From: Candidatus Eiseniibacteriota bacterium
GTDB lineage: Bacteria; Orphanbacterota; Orphanbacteria; Orphanbacterales; Orphanbacteraceae
Reading direction: 5' to 3'
DNA: 64,000 bases
Assembly (NCBI GenBank): GCA_029262235.1
Contig: JAJCZU010000004.1
Span: forward strand, 897,330-961,329
Part shown: in pieces, positions 7,401 to 27,285 of the stretch
Position numbering within the stretch: position 1 is the first letter of the stretch
Layout of the letters: every line of letters starts with the position of its first letter
Program-made: the position numbers and the translations under genes
Notes under the pieces: generated by a model
Databases searched by the model: none
What the model saw: only the letters and a program-made list of their open reading frames with translations
What the model was told of the DNA's origin: nothing

Positions 7401-7770
7401 CGCGGTCAAAAGCTTCGCGGCGCTCGGCCTCGATCTCTACGCGACCGGAGGCACGGCCGACTTCCTGAAGGCGAACGGTGTCGAGGCGACCTGGATTCCG
7501 TGGCCGCTCGATGAAGCCTCGCCCAACGCACTCGACCTCATTGCCTCCGGCGATGTCGACCTCGTCGTCAACATTCCGAAGTCGATCGAGCAGGACGAAC
7601 TCACGAACGACTATCTCATCCGGCGCCAGGCCGTCGACCGCGGCGTGCCCCTTCTCGTGAACGCCGAGACCGCCGCGCTCTTCGCGATCTCGATCGAGAT
7701 GCTGACGCTCGACGATCTCAAAGTGCGCGCCTGGGACGACTACGTGCCGGCGACCGATGGAGCGGAGTAG
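4468..7770 (+). CDS. carB: Carbamoyl-phosphate synthase large subunit
   Basis: CarB makes carbamoyl phosphate from bicarbonate, ammonia and two ATP. The 1100-residue protein shows the expected duplicated carboxyphosphate and carbamate halves (each opening with a GSG..IG motif: GSGGLTIGQAGEFDYSGSQA and LGSGAYRIGSSVEFDWC), an oligomerisation region between them, and a C-terminal MGS-like allosteric domain (about residues 955-1085, LYATGGTADFLKANG). Length matches the family (E. coli about 1070). The N-terminal signature with GSGGLTIGQAGEFDYSG, NIATIQTS and FGGQTALNCGVEL is the form known from eukaryotic CAD and some bacteria. ATG 4468 has a GGCGGGA upstream, but an internal ATG at 4522 (MPRRVLLLGSGG) with GGGAGA upstream starts exactly at the conserved fold and is an equally good start. 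No pyrB or pyrC is adjacent. Confidence 0.97.
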   Translation: MNDNTRPGNEGGATRENHMPRRVLLLGSGGLTIGQAGEFDYSGSQAIKALKEEGVEVVLVNPNIATIQTSEGLADKIYFLPLTADFVRRVIERERPDGILLSFGGQTALNCGVELHDSGVLAKHGVRVLGTPIETIVLTEDRDLFAKRLKEIGVPVAESRAVATIEEAVEAAETIGFPILLRAAYTLGGLGSSFVENAGELVEKATAGFAFSSQLLVERSLRGWKEFEYEVVRDRDDNCITVCNMENLDPMGIHTGESIVVAPSQTLSNDEFHMLRETAVSTIRKLGVVGECNIQFAINPASGEFVAIEVNARLSRSSALASKATGYPLAFVAAKLAVGKTLPEIPNSVTRATTACFEPALDYVVVKVPRWDLGKFRKAERVIGSSMKSVGEVMAIGRSLEEALQKAVRMVAPELEGVYGDEWILDDLETELSNPTDRRLLAIAEALRRDWEIARIHELTGVDPWFLYRIQNVVRLGRELSRYTLQSLPDPLLLETKRAGYSDLQIARLLLDGVKGNADQAALSVRRHRLDHGIRPYVKQIDTTAGEFPAETNYLYMTYHAQEDDVPVGDAKANRERGASAVMVLGSGAYRIGSSVEFDWCCVNAVQSLARQGYETIVVNHNPETVSTDYDVADRLYFEELSLERILDIWEKENPLGVIVSMGGQTPNNLAIPLDRAGIKVLGTSPASIDRAEDRHKFSGLLDELGLDQPRWTEARSLEEALRFAHEVGYPVLIRPSYVLSGAAMNVAYRDEDLESYLKEATLVSPEHPTVVSEFISGAKEIEVDAVANQGEVVAYAMGEHIEYAGVHSGDAVIVLPAQRVFISTVRRLKRIVREIARSLAITGPFNVQFLAKNDRIRIIECNLRASRSFPFASKTYRLNFVDLATRAMMGEPMREVSRSLFELDYVGVKAPQFSFSRLAGADPVLGVEMASTGEVACFGDGLEEAFLKSFLSVGYTIPKRGVLLSTGTIKEKTRLLPAVKSFAALGLDLYATGGTADFLKANGVEATWIPWPLDEASPNALDLIASGDVDLVVNIPKSIEQDELTNDYLIRRQAVDRGVPLLVNAETAALFAISIEMLTLDDLKVRAWDDYVPATDGAE

Positions 7771-7862
7771 GGAAGAGGTTCGCTCGCAGCTGTTGTCGCT
7801 GTCATCGCCGTTGCCGTCGAAACTTCGCTGCTGAATCGCGCTGCCGTTGTGTCTGCCGGCTT

Positions 7863-9029
7863 TCACACGCGGGCCGGCGCGGGGAGGCCCCTCCTGTCGG
7901 CCTCAACCCGGTTATGGGCTCCGCAGAGAAGACGCAGGTTTTCCGGCACGTGCTTCCCGCCGAGCGCGAAGGGCCTGATGTGGTCGATCTGCAGATGGCG
8001 GGTGGCGTCACATCGAGTGCCGTCGGCCGCAATGAACGTGCATCGAAAACCGTCACGCACGAAAATCTCATCCCGAACAGGCGCCGGGATGTAGCGGGAG
8101 CGACCTTTCCGGCGCCCGAACCCATTTCCACGAGCGTTCCCCGCACGCTTGCCCGTGCCCGTCTTCTGCACGTTGCCCGTACCTTGCCCGCTCTTTCGCC
8201 TTTCCCGGCGTTCTTGTCTTCCGGCCGGATCATGGCGATCGAGATACTCACGAAGCATCCGGCCGAAGACGGATTCCAGAGTCGAGCTTCCCGGCGCTAT
8301 CTTTCTTGCCCTCTCGAGCATCGCCATTGCATCCTGATCGATAGAGAATCGCAGTTCGAATCGAGTGCCGCGCAAGGAAGCCGTGGCTTTGCGTGCGGGA
8401 CGAGTGGTCGGGTTTTTACCGCCGCGGCGAAGGTAAATTTCTGGTCGGTTGCCTGTACTGTTACGATTCGCGGGTCGGTTGGGCGATTTTTCTGCGCCGG
8501 GCGGTCTGCTGGAATCCCCACCGCCCGAAACCCCCAGGCTCGGAGAGCGAGCCGGTTCGTTCCCGATCATGCGGTCTTCGGAAGGCTTTTCGAAAGCAAC
8601 CGGCGTGATCCGTTCGCGCACTCTCTTCCGCGGCTTGAGGCACGCGACGATCGCTTCCACTTCCCGCCGCGATTTCCCCGAGGCCCCTTTCAACAGGGCG
8701 AATCGATTGGATGGAGTCAGGACGGTCGAGAGCACACAGACCGTGCTCAGGTTGAGGCGGCCATCAGCAATCATCCCGCGAATCTCGGGGCATTTCACCA
8801 TGGTCCGTGCCGTGCAGATCCGCCTTCCTGCAGCAGACTCCGAGTAACGGAGCCTGGAGACGCAATAGCTGTGAAGGGACCGGAACCCCAAGTCCAGATG
8901 AATGTCCCGTCGGTCCATTTCGGCGAGTTGATCGAGAATCTCAATCGATACCGATCGTTCTCTCTGGGCCGACTCTTCGATCGAATCGACCAGCTCCTTG
9001 TCGGTCAGACTGGAAAATAGCTTGCGCAT
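7863..9029 (-). CDS. HNH endonuclease domain protein
   Basis: The N-terminal half (about residues 1-130) is a helical region (LTDKELVDSIEESAQRERS, LGFRSLHSYCVSRLRYSES) of the kind found before HNH domains in DUF222-like proteins. A low-complexity Arg/Gly/Lys linker follows, with near-repeats of GTGN/GKRAGN, and the protein ends with an HNH nuclease (PAPVRDEIFVRDGFRC..HLQIDHIRPFALGG..NLRLLCGAHNRVEADRRG). The residues DH..P..LGG..N..LC..HN match the metal-binding beta-beta-alpha core. Target unknown; relatives are often multicopy in environmental genomes and some are mobile. ATG 9029 is preferred to 9035 because AAGGA sits eight bases upstream. The gene converges on carB, leaving 92 bases between stops. 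Confidence 0.85.
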   Translation of the reverse strand: MRKLFSSLTDKELVDSIEESAQRERSVSIEILDQLAEMDRRDIHLDLGFRSLHSYCVSRLRYSESAAGRRICTARTMVKCPEIRGMIADGRLNLSTVCVLSTVLTPSNRFALLKGASGKSRREVEAIVACLKPRKRVRERITPVAFEKPSEDRMIGNEPARSPSLGVSGGGDSSRPPGAEKSPNRPANRNSTGNRPEIYLRRGGKNPTTRPARKATASLRGTRFELRFSIDQDAMAMLERARKIAPGSSTLESVFGRMLREYLDRHDPAGRQERRERRKSGQGTGNVQKTGTGKRAGNARGNGFGRRKGRSRYIPAPVRDEIFVRDGFRCTFIAADGTRCDATRHLQIDHIRPFALGGKHVPENLRLLCGAHNRVEADRRGLPAPARV

Positions 9030-20559: not shown

Positions 20560-23061
20560 TTAGGACGAAGCCACACGGGCCGCGATGATCGCGATGTCGT
20601 CGAGCTGGGCGATTCGCCCCTGAAATCCGGTGACCGACTCGAAGAGTGCGCTTATGATCGCGTCCAGGTTCTTGCGATTGTAACGGCTCAGGACGTCGAT
20701 GACACGCTCTTCTCCATATTCTTCGTCGCGGTGATTCGTGGCTTCGAGCAGGCCGTCCGTGAACGCCACAACGAGATCGCGCGGGCCGAGGTCGACGCGG
20801 CGCTGCTCGTATACCGCGTCGGGCATGATGCCGAGCGGAAGCCCCGTCGAGTCGAGCGTTTCGATGCGGCCGTCGCCCCGCACGAGCACGGCGCCCGGAT
20901 GCCCGGCGCTCGCGTACCAGAGTTTGCGTCCGTCGGCGGAAACGCGCGCGAGAAAATGCGTCACGAACTCGCTGGGCCTTCCGGCGGCGGCGAGATTGCG
21001 GTTCAGCTGCGACAGGATGTGCGCCGGGTCGGGCACGGAGAGTTCGCCGCTGTGCAGATGATAGTGAATGCTTGACATGCGAAGCGCTGCGGCGTACCCG
21101 TGACCGGCGACATCGGCCACGGTGAATAGAACGGAGCCGTCGCGCAGCTCAAAGTAGTCGTAATAGTCGCCCCCGCACTCCTGCATGCTGTGACAGACGC
21201 CCGTGATTTCGAGATCGTCGTTCCGGAGTTTGCGCGAAGGGAAGAGCGAGCGTTGCATGTCGCGCGCTTTGTTGAGCTCTTCTTTGATGTCGGCCAGGAT
21301 CGTGGCCTTCTGCCGGTTCCGACTGTGCAGCAGTGCGAACGCGATGCTGCCGCCGAGCAGAACGGTCAGCATCGTCGCGATCGGAATCCAGTTCTCGCGC
21401 GCGGCGTGTCCGGCGCGGCTCAGGAAGTACGGCACCGACCGGATCGAGTAATGCCGCTCCTCGTTCCACACCTCCGAGAAGTAGATCGGCGCGCGCGCGG
21501 TTTCGTTGCGGACAACGATATCCCAGCGGGTATTCGTCCCGTTCTGCAGAAAGCGGATGCAGCGCGTGGGTTCTGTCGAAGCGGCGGTCCAGACCGTGTC
21601 GCCCATGCGAATCCAGTCGTCGTCGACGAAACGGTACGGCACCGCGCCGATTCCGAACCCCGCCCAGTCTTCGGGCGAGCCGTTGCGCGCCGTGACGCAC
21701 AGTTCGTGCTCGGTGTCCCAGGCGTCCCCGTCTTCGTCGCCGATGCTCGCCATCTCGAACCGTTCGTTCGAAGGGGGCACGGGCTCCACCCAGTCGCCGT
21801 CCCATACGAGGAAGAAGTGCTCGAGGCGAAGCGCCCAGCGATGCGAGAGATTGCGGAGTCCGAGCACGGACGCGTTACCGTTCAGCGAGAAGCGCGACGA
21901 CCAGTTGCCTGGACGCGAGAGCGTACCGAGAAACGCGAGGCGCTCGTCTTCGTGCGCGCGCATTTCGTAGAGCGGCACGTCGTCGGGGAACGTGATCTCT
22001 TCCCACTCATCCGCGTGCGTGACTTTCTCGCCGTCGGTCAAGATAAGGTGATGCGTGCGGAAGCCGACCGAGGCGTCGCGACCGGCTTCGAGTATGGCGT
22101 CGAGCGGGCCGCCCGCTTTGAGAATGTCGTTCGAAGCCACTACGGTCAGCCGCATCGGAATGTCGGGCGACCACGGGTTCGGCACCACGCAATCGAGAAT
22201 CGACCCTTCCAGCGTGCGTCCGTCGCCAAACGCGAAACCGTCGCTCGTCACGCGCGTTCCCATCCGCGTCAGCGCCTCGGCCAGCCATCGATTTTCGGAC
22301 GGCGCGCCGACGAGCCACACGGGCGAGTAACGGATTTCGGCCTCCGTAATTTCGTCCGGGGCGGAAGCGTATGTGTTGGGAGATCCGCCCGAGTCGAGCA
22401 GGCGGGGGAGCGATGCGGAAAGTCCTTCGGGAAGTACGAGGCTCCAGCCGCCGCGTCCGCGCGCAAAACGGTCGGCGAGCGCGAAGCTTCCGTCGAACGA
22501 GCGCTGGCCGACCAGGACCGGGATCAGGCCGCGTCCGAACCAGTCGACACGCGCGCTGCGCGAAGTCGTGGCAGGCACCGCGACGATCGCTTCGGACGTG
22601 GCGCCGCCGCCCGCGGGAAGGGAGACGACCGCCCCGTCGACGCGCACGGACACGATCACTTCATAGATGCCGCCAGGGGACCCCGCCGTAACCTCGAATC
22701 CCAGATAGTGCACGCCCGACAGTACGCGGATTTCTTCGCGAGCGAAGAGGCCGGATCCGACCATCGGTTGGACCGCGAGAACCTCGCGAGGTGCGATTTC
22801 CGTCGCTTCCCAGACAAGCAGCGTGTCGCCGCGGGCGCCGTCGATCCGATGCACTTCGATGTCCGCGATTCCGCCGGTCGAATGCACCGAAACGCGCGTT
22901 CCCGAGCCGGGCGTGAGTGCGAACCGGCCGCTGTGACGAGACGTTTCGGACGAAAGCGGCTGCAGCTCCTCCGGCACGCGCACAGCGCCTGCCGGGGCCG
23001 TGAACAGCGCAAATACGGCCAGAAAGAGCGAAATCAGACTGCATCTTCGAACGATTCGCAC
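20560..23061 (-). CDS. PP2C/SpoIIE-type phosphatase with large extracytoplasmic sensor region
   Basis: The 833-residue protein has a signal peptide (SLISLFLAVFALFTAPAGA), about 530 residues predicted outside the cytoplasm, one membrane segment near residues 556-576 (WIPIATMLTVLLGGSIAFAL), a short helical linker and a C-terminal SpoIIE/RsbU phosphatase domain from about residue 600. Family residues are visible in DMQRSLFPS, CGGDYYDYFELRDGSVLFTVADVAGHGYAAALRMS and VAFTDGLLEATN, where the Asp residues bind the two metals. Such enzymes dephosphorylate Ser/Thr on proteins, often anti-sigma antagonists. The external region contains beta-rich segments I cannot assign. The neighbouring kinase, 14 bases downstream, is the obvious counterpart, though that pairing is inferred. 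Confidence 0.88.
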   Translation of the reverse strand: MRIVRRCSLISLFLAVFALFTAPAGAVRVPEELQPLSSETSRHSGRFALTPGSGTRVSVHSTGGIADIEVHRIDGARGDTLLVWEATEIAPREVLAVQPMVGSGLFAREEIRVLSGVHYLGFEVTAGSPGGIYEVIVSVRVDGAVVSLPAGGGATSEAIVAVPATTSRSARVDWFGRGLIPVLVGQRSFDGSFALADRFARGRGGWSLVLPEGLSASLPRLLDSGGSPNTYASAPDEITEAEIRYSPVWLVGAPSENRWLAEALTRMGTRVTSDGFAFGDGRTLEGSILDCVVPNPWSPDIPMRLTVVASNDILKAGGPLDAILEAGRDASVGFRTHHLILTDGEKVTHADEWEEITFPDDVPLYEMRAHEDERLAFLGTLSRPGNWSSRFSLNGNASVLGLRNLSHRWALRLEHFFLVWDGDWVEPVPPSNERFEMASIGDEDGDAWDTEHELCVTARNGSPEDWAGFGIGAVPYRFVDDDWIRMGDTVWTAASTEPTRCIRFLQNGTNTRWDIVVRNETARAPIYFSEVWNEERHYSIRSVPYFLSRAGHAARENWIPIATMLTVLLGGSIAFALLHSRNRQKATILADIKEELNKARDMQRSLFPSRKLRNDDLEITGVCHSMQECGGDYYDYFELRDGSVLFTVADVAGHGYAAALRMSSIHYHLHSGELSVPDPAHILSQLNRNLAAAGRPSEFVTHFLARVSADGRKLWYASAGHPGAVLVRGDGRIETLDSTGLPLGIMPDAVYEQRRVDLGPRDLVVAFTDGLLEATNHRDEEYGEERVIDVLSRYNRKNLDAIISALFESVTGFQGRIAQLDDIAIIAARVASS

Positions 23062-23187
23062 GGGCAGATTCTAGCTTTCGGGGTATGGGGCGATTTTCGA
23101 GTCGGCTCTTCACTATAAGAGACGGTCGAATCGCCTTCCGCGATCAAAAGTTTCGAAGCAAAATGCGCGCGCGCGAATGCCTCGGGA

Positions 23188-23829
23188 TCAGAGCGTGACG
23201 TGGACCCGGACCGCCCACGCCTCGATATCCTGCTCCTGGCCGACGTCCACGGGCACGTCACCGATCATGAAATTATCTTCGAGCACGCCGTTCAGGTCGA
23301 ACTCGTAGCGCAGTTCGGGCGCGATGCTGATGCCGGTGGCAGGGAGCGTGAACTCGATGCCCGCTCCCACGGCGCCCATCATGATGCTCGATTTGAAATT
23401 GTCCTCGAAGTCGCTGCTGCTCGTCGTGTTGAAACGGAACTCGGGCCCGGCCACGATGTACGGCGAAACGACACCAAGCGGAATGCGATAGAGAAAGTCG
23501 ACCGGGATCGCGAAGAACGTCACGTCGAAGCTGTCGTCGAAGTCGATGTTCGCAGCCTCCGCGAGACCTTCGTAGAGCGGGCCGGCATTGACCCACAGCA
23601 GGCCGGGTCGAATCGCGATCGGACCGGCCGTGATCTGGACGAAGCCCCCGATCGCATAGCCGGTTTTGCTTTCGTACGTCGTTTCCGTATCGCCGAGTTC
23701 GATATCGCTGAGGTCAGAGAACGAAAATCCTCCGGTCGCCCCGATTTTCACGATGGCGTCGGCGTTTGCGGGGAAAAGCGCGCAGCCCGCTACGAGCGCC
23801 GCCAATCCTGTCTTTATGAATCGATTCAC
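23188..23829 (-). CDS. Outer-membrane beta-barrel protein (OmpA/OmpW-like small barrel)
   Basis: The 213-residue protein starts with a signal peptide (FIKTGLAALVAGCALFPANADA) and continues with alternating amphipathic beta strands typical of an eight-stranded barrel of the porin_13/OMP_b-brl class (VKIGATGGFSFSDLSD, YAIGGFVQITAGPIAIRPGLLWV, VVSPYIVAGPEFRFNTTSS, ISIAPELRYEFDLNGVLE). It ends with AVRVHVTL, an alternating strand that could serve as the barrel-assembly signal. GTG 23829 follows GGAGGA at good spacing. No pathway link to its neighbours is evident. Confidence 0.8.
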   Translation of the reverse strand: MNRFIKTGLAALVAGCALFPANADAIVKIGATGGFSFSDLSDIELGDTETTYESKTGYAIGGFVQITAGPIAIRPGLLWVNAGPLYEGLAEAANIDFDDSFDVTFFAIPVDFLYRIPLGVVSPYIVAGPEFRFNTTSSSDFEDNFKSSIMMGAVGAGIEFTLPATGISIAPELRYEFDLNGVLEDNFMIGDVPVDVGQEQDIEAWAVRVHVTL

Positions 23830-24208: not shown

Positions 24209-25492
24209 ATGAGCCGTGGAAGACTGCTTTCGAGAATCGGTCCGGGGATCGCGGTGGCGGCCACGGGCGTCGGCGCGGGCGATATCGTGAGCGCCGCCGT
24301 CGCGGGGTCGCGGTTCGGGCTTGTTGTCGTCTGGGCGGCGCTTCTCGGCGCGCTGCTCAAATTCATACTGGCCGAGGGCGTGGCGCGCTGGCAGCTGGCG
24401 ACCGGCACGACGATCCTCGAAGGCTGGATCACGCGGCTCGCCCGCCCGGTCCGCATCTATTTCCTCATCTATATGATCATCTGGTCGTTCGTGGTCGGCG
24501 GCGCGCTCATTTCCGCATGCGGGCTTGCCGCGCACGCGCTTGCGCCCGGCGTTTCGTATATCGCGTGGGGATGGATTCATTCGCTCGTGGCCGTCGTCTT
24601 CGTCTGGTTCGGGCGCTACACGCTGTTCGAAAACGCGATGAAGCTGTTCGTCGGCATGATGTTCGTCGGCATCGTGGCAAGCTTCGCGCAGGCGGGAGTG
24701 CCGATCGGCGAACTGATGCGCGGCCTCACCGTGCCCCGCGTTCCCAGCGGATCGATCGGACTGCTGCTCGCTGTGATCGGCGGTGTCGGGGGCACGATTA
24801 CGCTGCTCTCGTACAGTTACTGGCTGCGCGAGAAGGGATGGAACGAGGCGCGGCATCTGCCGTTCGCTCGGCTCGACCTCGGGCTGGCGTATCTCGTAAC
24901 CGGGATCTTCGGCGTGGCGACCATTTCGCTTGCGGCCGTCACTCTCTTTGCCGCCGGCATCGAAGTCGAGGGCCGGAACGCGGCGCTCCGCATGGCGGAA
25001 ATGCTCGGCGAACGCGGCGGCATGGCCTCGCGGCTCTTTCTGATCGGCTTCTGGGGTGCGGTGGCCAGCAGTCTTGTCGGCGTGTGGCAGTCGGTACCGT
25101 ATCTCTACACGGAATACGTGCGCCTCGCGCGCGGCGGCGACGTGTTCGCCGCGCAGAAATCGCGATCGGCGCGTGCGCGCAGCGGAGGCCCGGGCGGCAC
25201 GCCGGTCGACCCGACACGCACGGTGCACTATCGCGTCTATCTTCTCTACCTCGCGATCCCGCCGATCGCACTTCTCTACATGGCAAAACCGGTGTGGCTC
25301 GTCATTCTCTATGCGGTCGTCGGATCGTTCTTCATGCCGTTCCTCGCGGGTACCCTTCTTTACATGCTGAATCGCCGGGAGTGGATGGGGACGCACAGGA
25401 ACGGGATCCCGGCGAACGCGGGGCTCGCTTTCGCGCTCGGGCTCTTTGCGTATCTCGCGATCGCCGAAATCGTGAAGAGGGTCGGTTCGTGA
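24209..25492 (+). CDS. Nramp-family-like metal ion transporter lacking the canonical metal-site motifs
   Basis: The 427-residue protein has about eleven hydrophobic segments and the general Nramp fold sequence (GPGIAVAATGVGAGDIVSAAVAGSRFG, ILEGWITRLARPVRIYF, LFVGMMFVGIVASFAQAG). In canonical Nramp proteins the first membrane helix carries DPGN and the sixth MPH; here the positions read GVGAGD and GGVGGTITLLSYSYWLREKG. The Asp/Asn and Met metal ligands are therefore absent, as in Nramp-related subgroups whose transport of Mn or Fe is doubtful. ATG 24209 lacks a strong ribosome site but begins the conserved region. It is joined to the next gene by a GTGA overlap, which implies translational coupling. 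Confidence 0.85.
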   Translation: MSRGRLLSRIGPGIAVAATGVGAGDIVSAAVAGSRFGLVVVWAALLGALLKFILAEGVARWQLATGTTILEGWITRLARPVRIYFLIYMIIWSFVVGGALISACGLAAHALAPGVSYIAWGWIHSLVAVVFVWFGRYTLFENAMKLFVGMMFVGIVASFAQAGVPIGELMRGLTVPRVPSGSIGLLLAVIGGVGGTITLLSYSYWLREKGWNEARHLPFARLDLGLAYLVTGIFGVATISLAAVTLFAAGIEVEGRNAALRMAEMLGERGGMASRLFLIGFWGAVASSLVGVWQSVPYLYTEYVRLARGGDVFAAQKSRSARARSGGPGGTPVDPTRTVHYRVYLLYLAIPPIALLYMAKPVWLVILYAVVGSFFMPFLAGTLLYMLNRREWMGTHRNGIPANAGLAFALGLFAYLAIAEIVKRVGS

Positions 25493-26853
25493 GCCGGCGG
25501 GGCGAGGACCGGCAGAGGACGGGTACTCGGCGCACGGACGCGGGGCGCGCGGACGCGGGGCGCTCGGACGGGCCGCCGCGATTTCTGGTCGACGGCATGC
25601 TCGCGCGCCTGGCGCGATGGTTGCGCGCGGCGGGGTTTGACGCACAGTACGCGGATGGGACAGATCCGCGCACGCAGGTCGTGCAGGCGATGCGCGCCGA
25701 CCGGATTGTCGTGACGCGGAACCGCCGGTTTCCGCGAGCGCCGGGAGCGCGCCAGATCGTGCTCGAGTCAAAAACGCTCGAACATCAAATGGTGGAACTG
25801 CTGCGGCATTTCCCGGGCCTGAATCCGCTGGCAAGTCCGTTCTCACGGTGTACCGGCTGCAATGAACCGGTAGCGCCGAGCGAGCCCCCGACTCCGGCGC
25901 CGGCGGGAATCGAGGGCCCGTTCACGCGCTGCCCGGGATGCGGCCGCTACTACTGGCGCGGCAGTCACTACGACCGTATGCACGCGAAGCTCGTGCGCGT
26001 GGCACGCGTGCTCGAAGAAAGCCGTGTGCGCGAGGCGGCGGGAGATCCGCCCCCGATCACGCGCGACGAGTTCGACGAGTTCCTGCGCGAAGCGCTCGTA
26101 CTGCTCGGCCTTTCGTGGCGCGGGTACCGGCGCGTGCGCTGGGGATTTCGCACGCGGCTCCGCAATCGACTGCGCGAACTCGGCCTGCTCCGCCTGCGTG
26201 ACTACATGGTTCTCGTGCGAAAGAATCCGGTCGAGCGCGAACGGCTGGGTGCGCAGCTGGCCGTCACGATTTCGCGCTTCTTTCGCGATCGCGGTTTCTG
26301 GTTCCGGTTCGCGGACGATCTGTTCCCGGTGCTCGAGCTGCTTGCGAATGGCGGCCCGGTGCGCGTCTGGTCGCTCGGCTGCGCGTCGGGCGAGGAGCCG
26401 TACACGCTGCGCATCGTCTGGCGTGAGTCGGGACGGCGTGAAGAGGCTCTCTCGGTCGTGGCCACGGATCTGCGCCCGGTCTGTCTCGAGCGCGCGGCGC
26501 GGCGCCTGTATCCCGAAAGCGCCGTGCACAATGTTCCGGCCGTGCTCCGGTCGCGCTATCTGCACGAACGGAACGGGACGTTTCTGCTCGACGAGGAAAT
26601 CGCGCGCGGCGTGCAGTTCGAACGGTTCGACTGGCGGAGCGAAAAGGGCTGGCCGGTCGGCGACTTTCACTGGGTCCTCGCGCGAAACGGCATCTTCACG
26701 TACGACGACGAACCGCATGCGCTCGCGAAACTCGCCCGCATCGAACGAGCGCTCGTTCCCGGCGGCTATCTCTGGATCGGGGGGAATGAACGCCTGCCCG
26801 GCGCAGCGCAGGCGCGCTGGACGAAGGTGGCGCCCAGCCTCTATCGGAAGTAA
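25489..26853 (+). CDS. Fusion of Mut7-C PIN-like RNase domain with CheR-type methyltransferase
   Basis: The 454-residue protein has two joined families. Residues ~31-165 match Mut7-C: RFLVDGMLARLARWLRAAGFD with putative metal ligand Asp35, followed by a zinc ribbon with Cys121, Cys124, Cys148 and Cys151 and the signature YYWRGSHYDRM. The usual TRD motif reads TRN (Asn78), so one nuclease acid is missing. Residues ~195-454 match CheR: ISRFFRDRGFWF, the SAM loop VWSLGCASGEEPYTL (Gly297 on), VATDLRP, and RNGIFTYDDE in place of RNVLIYFD. GTG 25489 overlaps the Nramp stop; the first 28 residues are a tandem Arg/Asp/Gly repeat. No chemotaxis genes are near, so the methyl target is unknown. Confidence 0.82.
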   Translation: MSRRGEDRQRTGTRRTDAGRADAGRSDGPPRFLVDGMLARLARWLRAAGFDAQYADGTDPRTQVVQAMRADRIVVTRNRRFPRAPGARQIVLESKTLEHQMVELLRHFPGLNPLASPFSRCTGCNEPVAPSEPPTPAPAGIEGPFTRCPGCGRYYWRGSHYDRMHAKLVRVARVLEESRVREAAGDPPPITRDEFDEFLREALVLLGLSWRGYRRVRWGFRTRLRNRLRELGLLRLRDYMVLVRKNPVERERLGAQLAVTISRFFRDRGFWFRFADDLFPVLELLANGGPVRVWSLGCASGEEPYTLRIVWRESGRREEALSVVATDLRPVCLERAARRLYPESAVHNVPAVLRSRYLHERNGTFLLDEEIARGVQFERFDWRSEKGWPVGDFHWVLARNGIFTYDDEPHALAKLARIERALVPGGYLWIGGNERLPGAAQARWTKVAPSLYRK

Positions 26854-26904: not shown

Positions 26905-27285
26905 ATGGTAATCGGACTCGGACTCGACCTCATCGAACTCGGCCGCGTGCGTGACGTATACGATCGCTTCGGCGAGCGATTTCTGCAGCGCATCTTTCGC
27001 CAGAGCGAGATCGACTACTGCTTCGCGAAGAGCGATCCGGTCCCTTCGCTGGCCGGCCGCTTCGCCGTGAAAGAGGCCGCGATGAAAGCGCTCGGCACGG
27101 GATACTCGCGCGGTGTCTGGTTTCGCGATATCGAGGTCGTGCGCCCGCCCGGTTCGCCCCCCGCGATCCGTTTTCACGGCGGCGCGAAAGCACGCGCGGA
27201 GTCGATGGGCGTCACACGCGCACTCTGCACGATCACGCACGAGCGCAACATGGGCGCCGCGGTCGTCATCTTCGAAGGAGAGTAA
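26905..27285 (+). CDS. acpS: Holo-[acyl-carrier-protein] synthase
   Basis: AcpS transfers the phosphopantetheine arm from CoA to apo-ACP. The 126-residue protein is the typical length and has GLGLDLIELGRVRDVYDRFGERFLQRIF, with the magnesium-binding Asp8, and the second signature LAGRFAVKEAAMKALGTG with the Glu ligand and Lys. The C-terminal strand ITHERNMGAAVVIFE replaces the usual SHE..YA.A.V. ATG 26905 is preceded by GGGGAG. It lies 51 bases after the fusion gene and 3 bases before kbl. Confidence 0.95.
   Translation: MVIGLGLDLIELGRVRDVYDRFGERFLQRIFRQSEIDYCFAKSDPVPSLAGRFAVKEAAMKALGTGYSRGVWFRDIEVVRPPGSPPAIRFHGGAKARAESMGVTRALCTITHERNMGAAVVIFEGE

Follow-up and report, generated by a model that had tools for sequence, protein, structure and literature searches.

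A single open frame encodes a genuine two-domain protein, in which a Mut7-C domain with its zinc ribbon is joined to a complete CheR-like methyltransferase. The gene lies in a window of 64,000 nucleotides (the whole stretch of DNA analysed) and is shared by all the genomes that we examined of its bacterial family, a little-known and uncultured one. The CheR half does not belong with the CheR of chemotaxis; it groups with mostly free-standing CheR-like proteins, called orphans here, that share its catalytic residues and its altered catalytic loop. Tentatively, and with rather less than even confidence, we read the protein as an orphan CheR-like methyltransferase that Mut7-C would tether to RNA or to a ribonucleoprotein (RNP), where it would methylate a carboxylate on an associated protein. 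The component domains are known; for their fused architecture, no description was found in the open-licence literature searched.

A fused frame kept within one family

The preliminary description of this DNA, made from the letters alone, had proposed a Mut7-C domain and zinc ribbon joined to a full CheR methyltransferase, and the analysis bears this out. Both domains lie far above their Pfam cut-offs (107.7 bits against 23.3 for Mut7-C; 109.6 bits against 27 for CheR, matched over residues 262-440 at E 1.7e-31), and the four cysteines of the ribbon are present. The CheR half is there in its whole length: residues 193-454 of the model align with residues 2-255 of B. subtilis CheR (5ftw) at Z 26.7, while Pfam CheR_N stayed below its cut-off in the Pfam scan of the protein. 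The N-terminal 29 residues are unconserved in the family and modelled with low confidence. The frame opens at a GTG whose first bases, read as GTGA, also hold the stop codon of the Nramp-family gene before it, an overlap of four bases (table 1).

Table 1. Features of the fusion gene and its co-oriented neighbours (positions in the window).
Feature	Positions	Strand	Basis or remark
Nramp-family transporter gene	24209..25492	+	Pfam Nramp, E 1.5e-34; overlaps fusion start by 4 bases
Mut7-C-CheR fusion gene	25489..26853	+	single open frame, 454 aa; GTG start at 25489, stop at 26853
Mut7-C domain, residues 30-167	25576..25989	+	Pfam PF01927, E 7.1e-31; conserved columns
Asp35 of Mut7-C	25591-25593	+	
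TRN motif of Mut7-C, residues 76-78	25714-25722	+	
Zinc ribbon, C121-x2-C124 ... C148-x2-C151	25849..25941	+	alignment; Cys invariant in 30/30 standalone and 6/6 fusion rows
Predicted linker helix, residues 160-183	25966..26037	+	AlphaFold2 model, mean pLDDT 88.2
CheR-like methyltransferase, residues 191-454 (all-alpha N domain and SAM domain)	26059..26850	+	Pfam PF01739; fold matches: 5ftw, 1af7
Arg266, counterpart of E. coli CheR Arg98	26284..26286	+	7/7 fusion, 56/56 orphan, 20/20 and 8/8 other CheR rows
Catalytic loop RNGIFTY, residues 399-405, ending in Tyr405 (E. coli Tyr235)	26683..26703	+	alignment; the loop of chemotaxis CheR is shorter by one residue
acpS, holo-ACP synthase	26905..27285	+	Pfam ACPS; downstream of fusion in 6/7 genomes

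The genome that carries the window (G000) measures 4.47 Mb on 11 contigs and is 95.5% complete; this protein is the sole CheR and the sole Mut7-C in it. The fusion occurs in all seven family genomes examined, at full length in six; in G006 it is broken, with the start of Mut7-C and the CheR half at the ends of two contigs. Two possible refutations had been named, namely an assembly error and relatives with separate genes and a stop near codon 180. Both are ruled out: the fused frame recurs in six family genomes from separate assemblies, and none of these intact copies shows split genes or such a stop. Moreover, dN/dS between G000 and G001 is 0.087 in Mut7-C (138 codons) and 0.15 in CheR (264 codons), and thus both halves are maintained as protein by purifying selection.

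The suggested search for the two-domain architecture found it in the family and, among the matches listed, nowhere else. That is, a profile of the fusion run on 386 genomes ranked the fusions first and gave, among the matches listed, no match spanning both domains in the 379 genomes outside the family. A contig scan of 78 CheR loci likewise placed both domains together in family members alone. No plasmid among 72,556 records carried the fusion with 80% query coverage in one place, and viral contigs gave no match in a single weak scan with the Mut7-C part only. Weak Mut7-C matches near two free-standing CheR genes (L064 and L087) covered some 54 profile positions with no zinc ribbon, and were judged to be a different short PIN-like protein. 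In the trees, the fusion rows stay together in both halves (Mut7-C, 6/6, SH-aLRT 99; CheR, 7/7, SH-aLRT 100). As each half forms a single clade, the trees fit one fusion event, in which the domains would have been joined in the ancestor of the family.

The surroundings of the gene vary. An Nramp-like gene lies upstream of the fusion in four of the seven family genomes; no Nramp match was found upstream in G004, in G006 or in the 676 bases visible in G003. The gene tyrS, the only RNA-related neighbour, is near the fusion in four of the seven. None of Nramp, acpS and tyrS points to a substrate. Nramp-family transporters carry a DPGN motif; the upstream protein reads GVGAGD at this site (NCBIfam match Nramp_1, 182 bits), and its metal specificity may differ. 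Two genes at 20560-23829 are divergent to the Nramp-fusion pair, one for a SpoIIE-type phosphatase of 833 aa and the other for a small beta-barrel protein of the outer membrane; G005 keeps both beside the fusion, and G002 keeps the barrel.

A CheR-like clade probably outside chemotaxis

By fold, the methyltransferase half is close to chemotaxis CheR. Its best solved relatives are chemotaxis enzymes (5ftw, E 2.8e-19), and in a structure comparison of the model CheR folds reach Z 24.5-26.7, against at most 14.2 for other methyltransferases. With the CheR glutamate methyltransferases of E. coli, B. subtilis (5ftw) and Salmonella (1af7) it shares fold, length, SAM motif and equivalents of Arg98, Asp154, Glu129 and Tyr235, and the catalytic Arg, Tyr, Glu and Asp are all retained in 7/7 fusions.

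To place this half, a CheR tree was built from 91 rows: 7 fusions (including the CheR half alone of G006, which is excluded from the Mut7-C rows), 56 orphans, a chemotaxis group of 20 and 8 large multi-domain proteins, assumed from their size to be of the CheB-CheR type. The 78 loci of the contig scan were 4 fusions and 74 others, of which 56 were used as orphans, 8 were the large proteins and 10 partial ones were left out. These orphans were retrieved with motifs of the fusion family, and the set is biased towards it. Within the chemotaxis group, E. coli CheR, L042 and L043 come from genomes with other chemotaxis genes, and the remaining 17 were assigned to it from similarity and tree position alone. 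A branch with SH-aLRT 100 parts the 7 fusions and 56 orphans from E. coli CheR, the 19 other CheR and the 8 large proteins.

The same division is visible in the sequences. Counted from the Asn that corresponds to E. coli Asn231 up to the Tyr235 equivalent, the segment has 6 residues in 63/63 clade members and 5 in 28/28 others, and helix alpha2, on the recognition side, carries a two-residue insertion in 7/7 fusions and 38/56 orphans, and in 0/28 others. Arg98 and Tyr235 are catalytic residues in E. coli CheR; their equivalents, Arg266 and Tyr405, are retained in every one of the 63 clade members. Given these residues together with the loop and helix insertions, the enzyme should be active with an altered substrate side. 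What sets the fusion apart from chemotaxis CheR is its own clade, a one-residue loop insertion, a two-residue alpha2 insertion and the N-terminal Mut7-C. The orphans have the same clade and the same 6-residue loop, whereas a domain scan of their frames detected no Mut7-C. They are distributed over Thermodesulfobacteriota, Bacteroidota, Balneolota, Alphaproteobacteria, Acidobacteriota, Gemmatimonadota and others; the culturable Desulfosarcina alkanivorans carries one, at L078. No description of a separate non-chemotaxis CheR clade with this loop signature was found in the open-licence literature searched.

Genome content agrees with the tree. The preliminary description had noted a CheR with no chemotaxis gene near it, and this local observation now extends to whole genomes: the MCP, CheB and CheW families are absent from five of the seven family genomes and present in G002 and G003. 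Each of these two carries a second CheR, on the chemotaxis side of the tree, and in G002 this second CheR shares one contig with CheB, MCP and CheW. Because these families are absent from five genomes and a separate CheR is present in the other two, the fusion is very probably not a chemoreceptor methyltransferase. It has the fold and the catalytic residues of a chemotaxis CheR, but neither the tree grouping nor the co-occurrence with MCP, CheB and CheW. An ordinary chemoreceptor-methylating CheR whose N-terminal domain is incidental would explain that fold and those residues; we consider it very improbable and reject it on genome content, tree placement and loop signature. Among the orphans, a survey of 40 of the 74 non-fusion loci found 15/40 genomes with no MCP match and 17/40 with none over the cut-off, many of these genomes being MAGs of unstated completeness.

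Two further arrangements were seen among the orphans. In five loci (L061, L064, L069, L079 and L087, at about 7490-8005), mostly from Thermodesulfobacteriota/delta, the start of the orphan cheR overlaps the end of an ogt-like gene (O6-methylguanine-DNA methyltransferase, assigned by Pfam in 2/5 loci and by BLAST cluster in the rest), which suggests translational coupling. In L066 (5595-6962), an orphan CheR from Hyphomicrobiales has DUF2267 fused at its C-terminus, another unexplained fusion of the clade.

A conserved Mut7-C core

The Mut7-C half was compared, in six fusion rows, with the best 30 standalone loci among all matches. All columns invariant in the 30 standalone domains are retained in the fusions (Asp35, the four Cys, a Trp and a His among them), as are nearly all conserved columns. 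The spacer between the Cys pairs is shorter in the fusions than in standalone Mut7-C. Set against the standalone prokaryotic Mut7-C and Ubl-Mut7-C fusions described in PMC1779556, the invariant Asp, Gly, Gln, four Cys, Trp and His are common to both; the partner here is a methyltransferase, the Cys-pair spacer is shorter, and half of the fusions read TRN or TIN.

This last motif had been taken as a sign that the RNase part may bind RNA without cutting, TRN lacking one acidic residue of TRD. Asp35 and TRN are present as claimed, and the acidic residue used to recognize PIN-type RNases is absent from our protein. As evidence of lost cutting, the motif is weak. The fusions read TRN in G000 and G001, TIN in G002 and TRD in G003, G004 and G005, and the third residue in the 30 standalone domains is D (20), N (4), R (3), S (2) or H (1). 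Since loss of Asp at this place is common, TRN says little about the fusion alone. It is quite improbable that Mut7-C is an active nuclease, with a CheR half that regulates it or marks its products. Asp35 is invariant, and PMC1779556 placed Mut7-C with the PIN RNases and reported that the two have a catalytic pattern in common, but a third of the standalone domains and half of the fusion rows have a non-Asp residue at the third place, and when RNA degradation was assayed, the C-terminal domains of worm and human, on their own, were used as negative controls (PMC11347159).

The PIN-like, RNase-like character given to the domain in the preliminary description is better seen as a family label. 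The solved Mut7-C fold resembles TOPRIM, with no significant PIN match reported in PMC11347159. The proposed RNA-binding role, in turn, agrees with that work: EXD3 and MUT-7 constructs without Mut7-C bound RNA six- to eightfold more weakly, a contribution to binding in either protein. On their own, the MUT-7 and EXD3 C-terminal domains bound RNA weakly, and in C. elegans an insertion in Mut7-C binds the protein MUT-8 (PMC11347159). Our Mut7-C profile matches the C. elegans MUT-7 C-terminal domain (8q66) at E 1.1e-5. In both that protein and EXD3, as in the fusion, Mut7-C accompanies a catalytic domain, which is an exoribonuclease in those two and a methyltransferase in the fusion.

Other measures of this half are less clear. 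The model of Mut7-C alone, built from 4 sequences, has a pLDDT of 77.5; its best fold match has Z 4.2, none has E <= 0.001, and the MUT-7 domain is not among the matches listed. PDB matches of one profile (A3) to zinc fingers were judged to be Cys-pattern matches. The net charge of the fused Mut7-C ranges from 0 to +10 in six fusions, against a median of +6 in the 30 standalone domains. Long standalone Mut7-C matches occur in 20/40 orphan-CheR genomes against 36/109 (Fisher p 0.085, kinship uncontrolled); the enrichment is not clear, and we do not claim it.

Readings of the function and what they mean

The reading that we favour, still short of even confidence, joins the two halves. Mut7-C would serve as an RNA-binding arm that brings the enzyme to RNA or an RNP, and the CheR half would methylate a carboxylate on a protein held there. 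Delivery to RNA is suggested by analogy with MUT-7, in which Mut7-C gives the catalytic domain an additional hold on RNA, and a protein carboxylate is favoured as acceptor because of the chemistry of characterized CheR. Against this reading, the sequence indicates no RNA or protein substrate, the charge of Mut7-C is mixed, separate orphan CheR and Mut7-C genes do not co-occur significantly, and the Nramp and acpS neighbours offer no RNA-methylation context. The weak RNA binding of the isolated C-terminal domains (PMC11347159) also counts against it.

Protein carboxyl methylation could also proceed with Mut7-C as a protein-binding or structural module rather than an RNA arm. This is a rather unlikely reading, though it draws on the MUT-8 contact of the worm domain (PMC11347159), on the remodelling in the fusions of the Cys-pair spacer, a site of variable insertions in animals, and on the mixed charge; yet the conserved core, tied to RNA binding by the animal data, is fully kept. 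Less probable still is an orphan CheR fold turned to methylate RNA itself, with Mut7-C binding the substrate. Mut7-C is an RNA-binding-type domain (PMC11347159), which speaks for this. So do the catalytic loop altered throughout the clade and the insertion in the recognition-side helix. On the other side, the residues of CheR carboxyl chemistry, Arg266 and Tyr405, are retained throughout, and no member of the CheR family is known to modify nucleic acids. A metabolic O-methyltransferase whose substrate is a small carboxylate or a metal-related compound, with a possible link to the Nramp transporter encoded in the same orientation, seems improbable. The Nramp gene upstream in four genomes (overlapping in G000) and the small-molecule methyltransferases among the Foldseek matches fit it, but those matches are weaker than CheR, as the Z-scores above show, and the upstream Nramp match fails in three genomes.

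CheR-fold methyltransferases thus include a separate, widespread lineage with its own loop signature, often in genomes with no detected chemoreceptors, and the annotation of this orphan clade as chemotaxis CheR is probably wrong. For Mut7-C, an ancient domain, the methyltransferase is a second type of enzyme partner besides exonucleases. The fusion is one member of the orphan clade whose partner points to RNA, and it makes the substrate question of non-chemotaxis CheR testable. It suggests methylation outside chemotaxis, possibly of RNA or of RNA-bound proteins; the preliminary description had thought a methyltransferase directed to RNA or to a ribosome-associated protein conceivable. Speculatively, and on balance doubtfully, bacteria would employ a CheR-type enzyme for a purpose other than signalling: directed to RNA, it would methylate protein carboxyls (or RNA) where Mut7-C positions it on a specific RNA or RNP, and the orphan clade would represent an unrecognized class of non-chemotaxis methylation.
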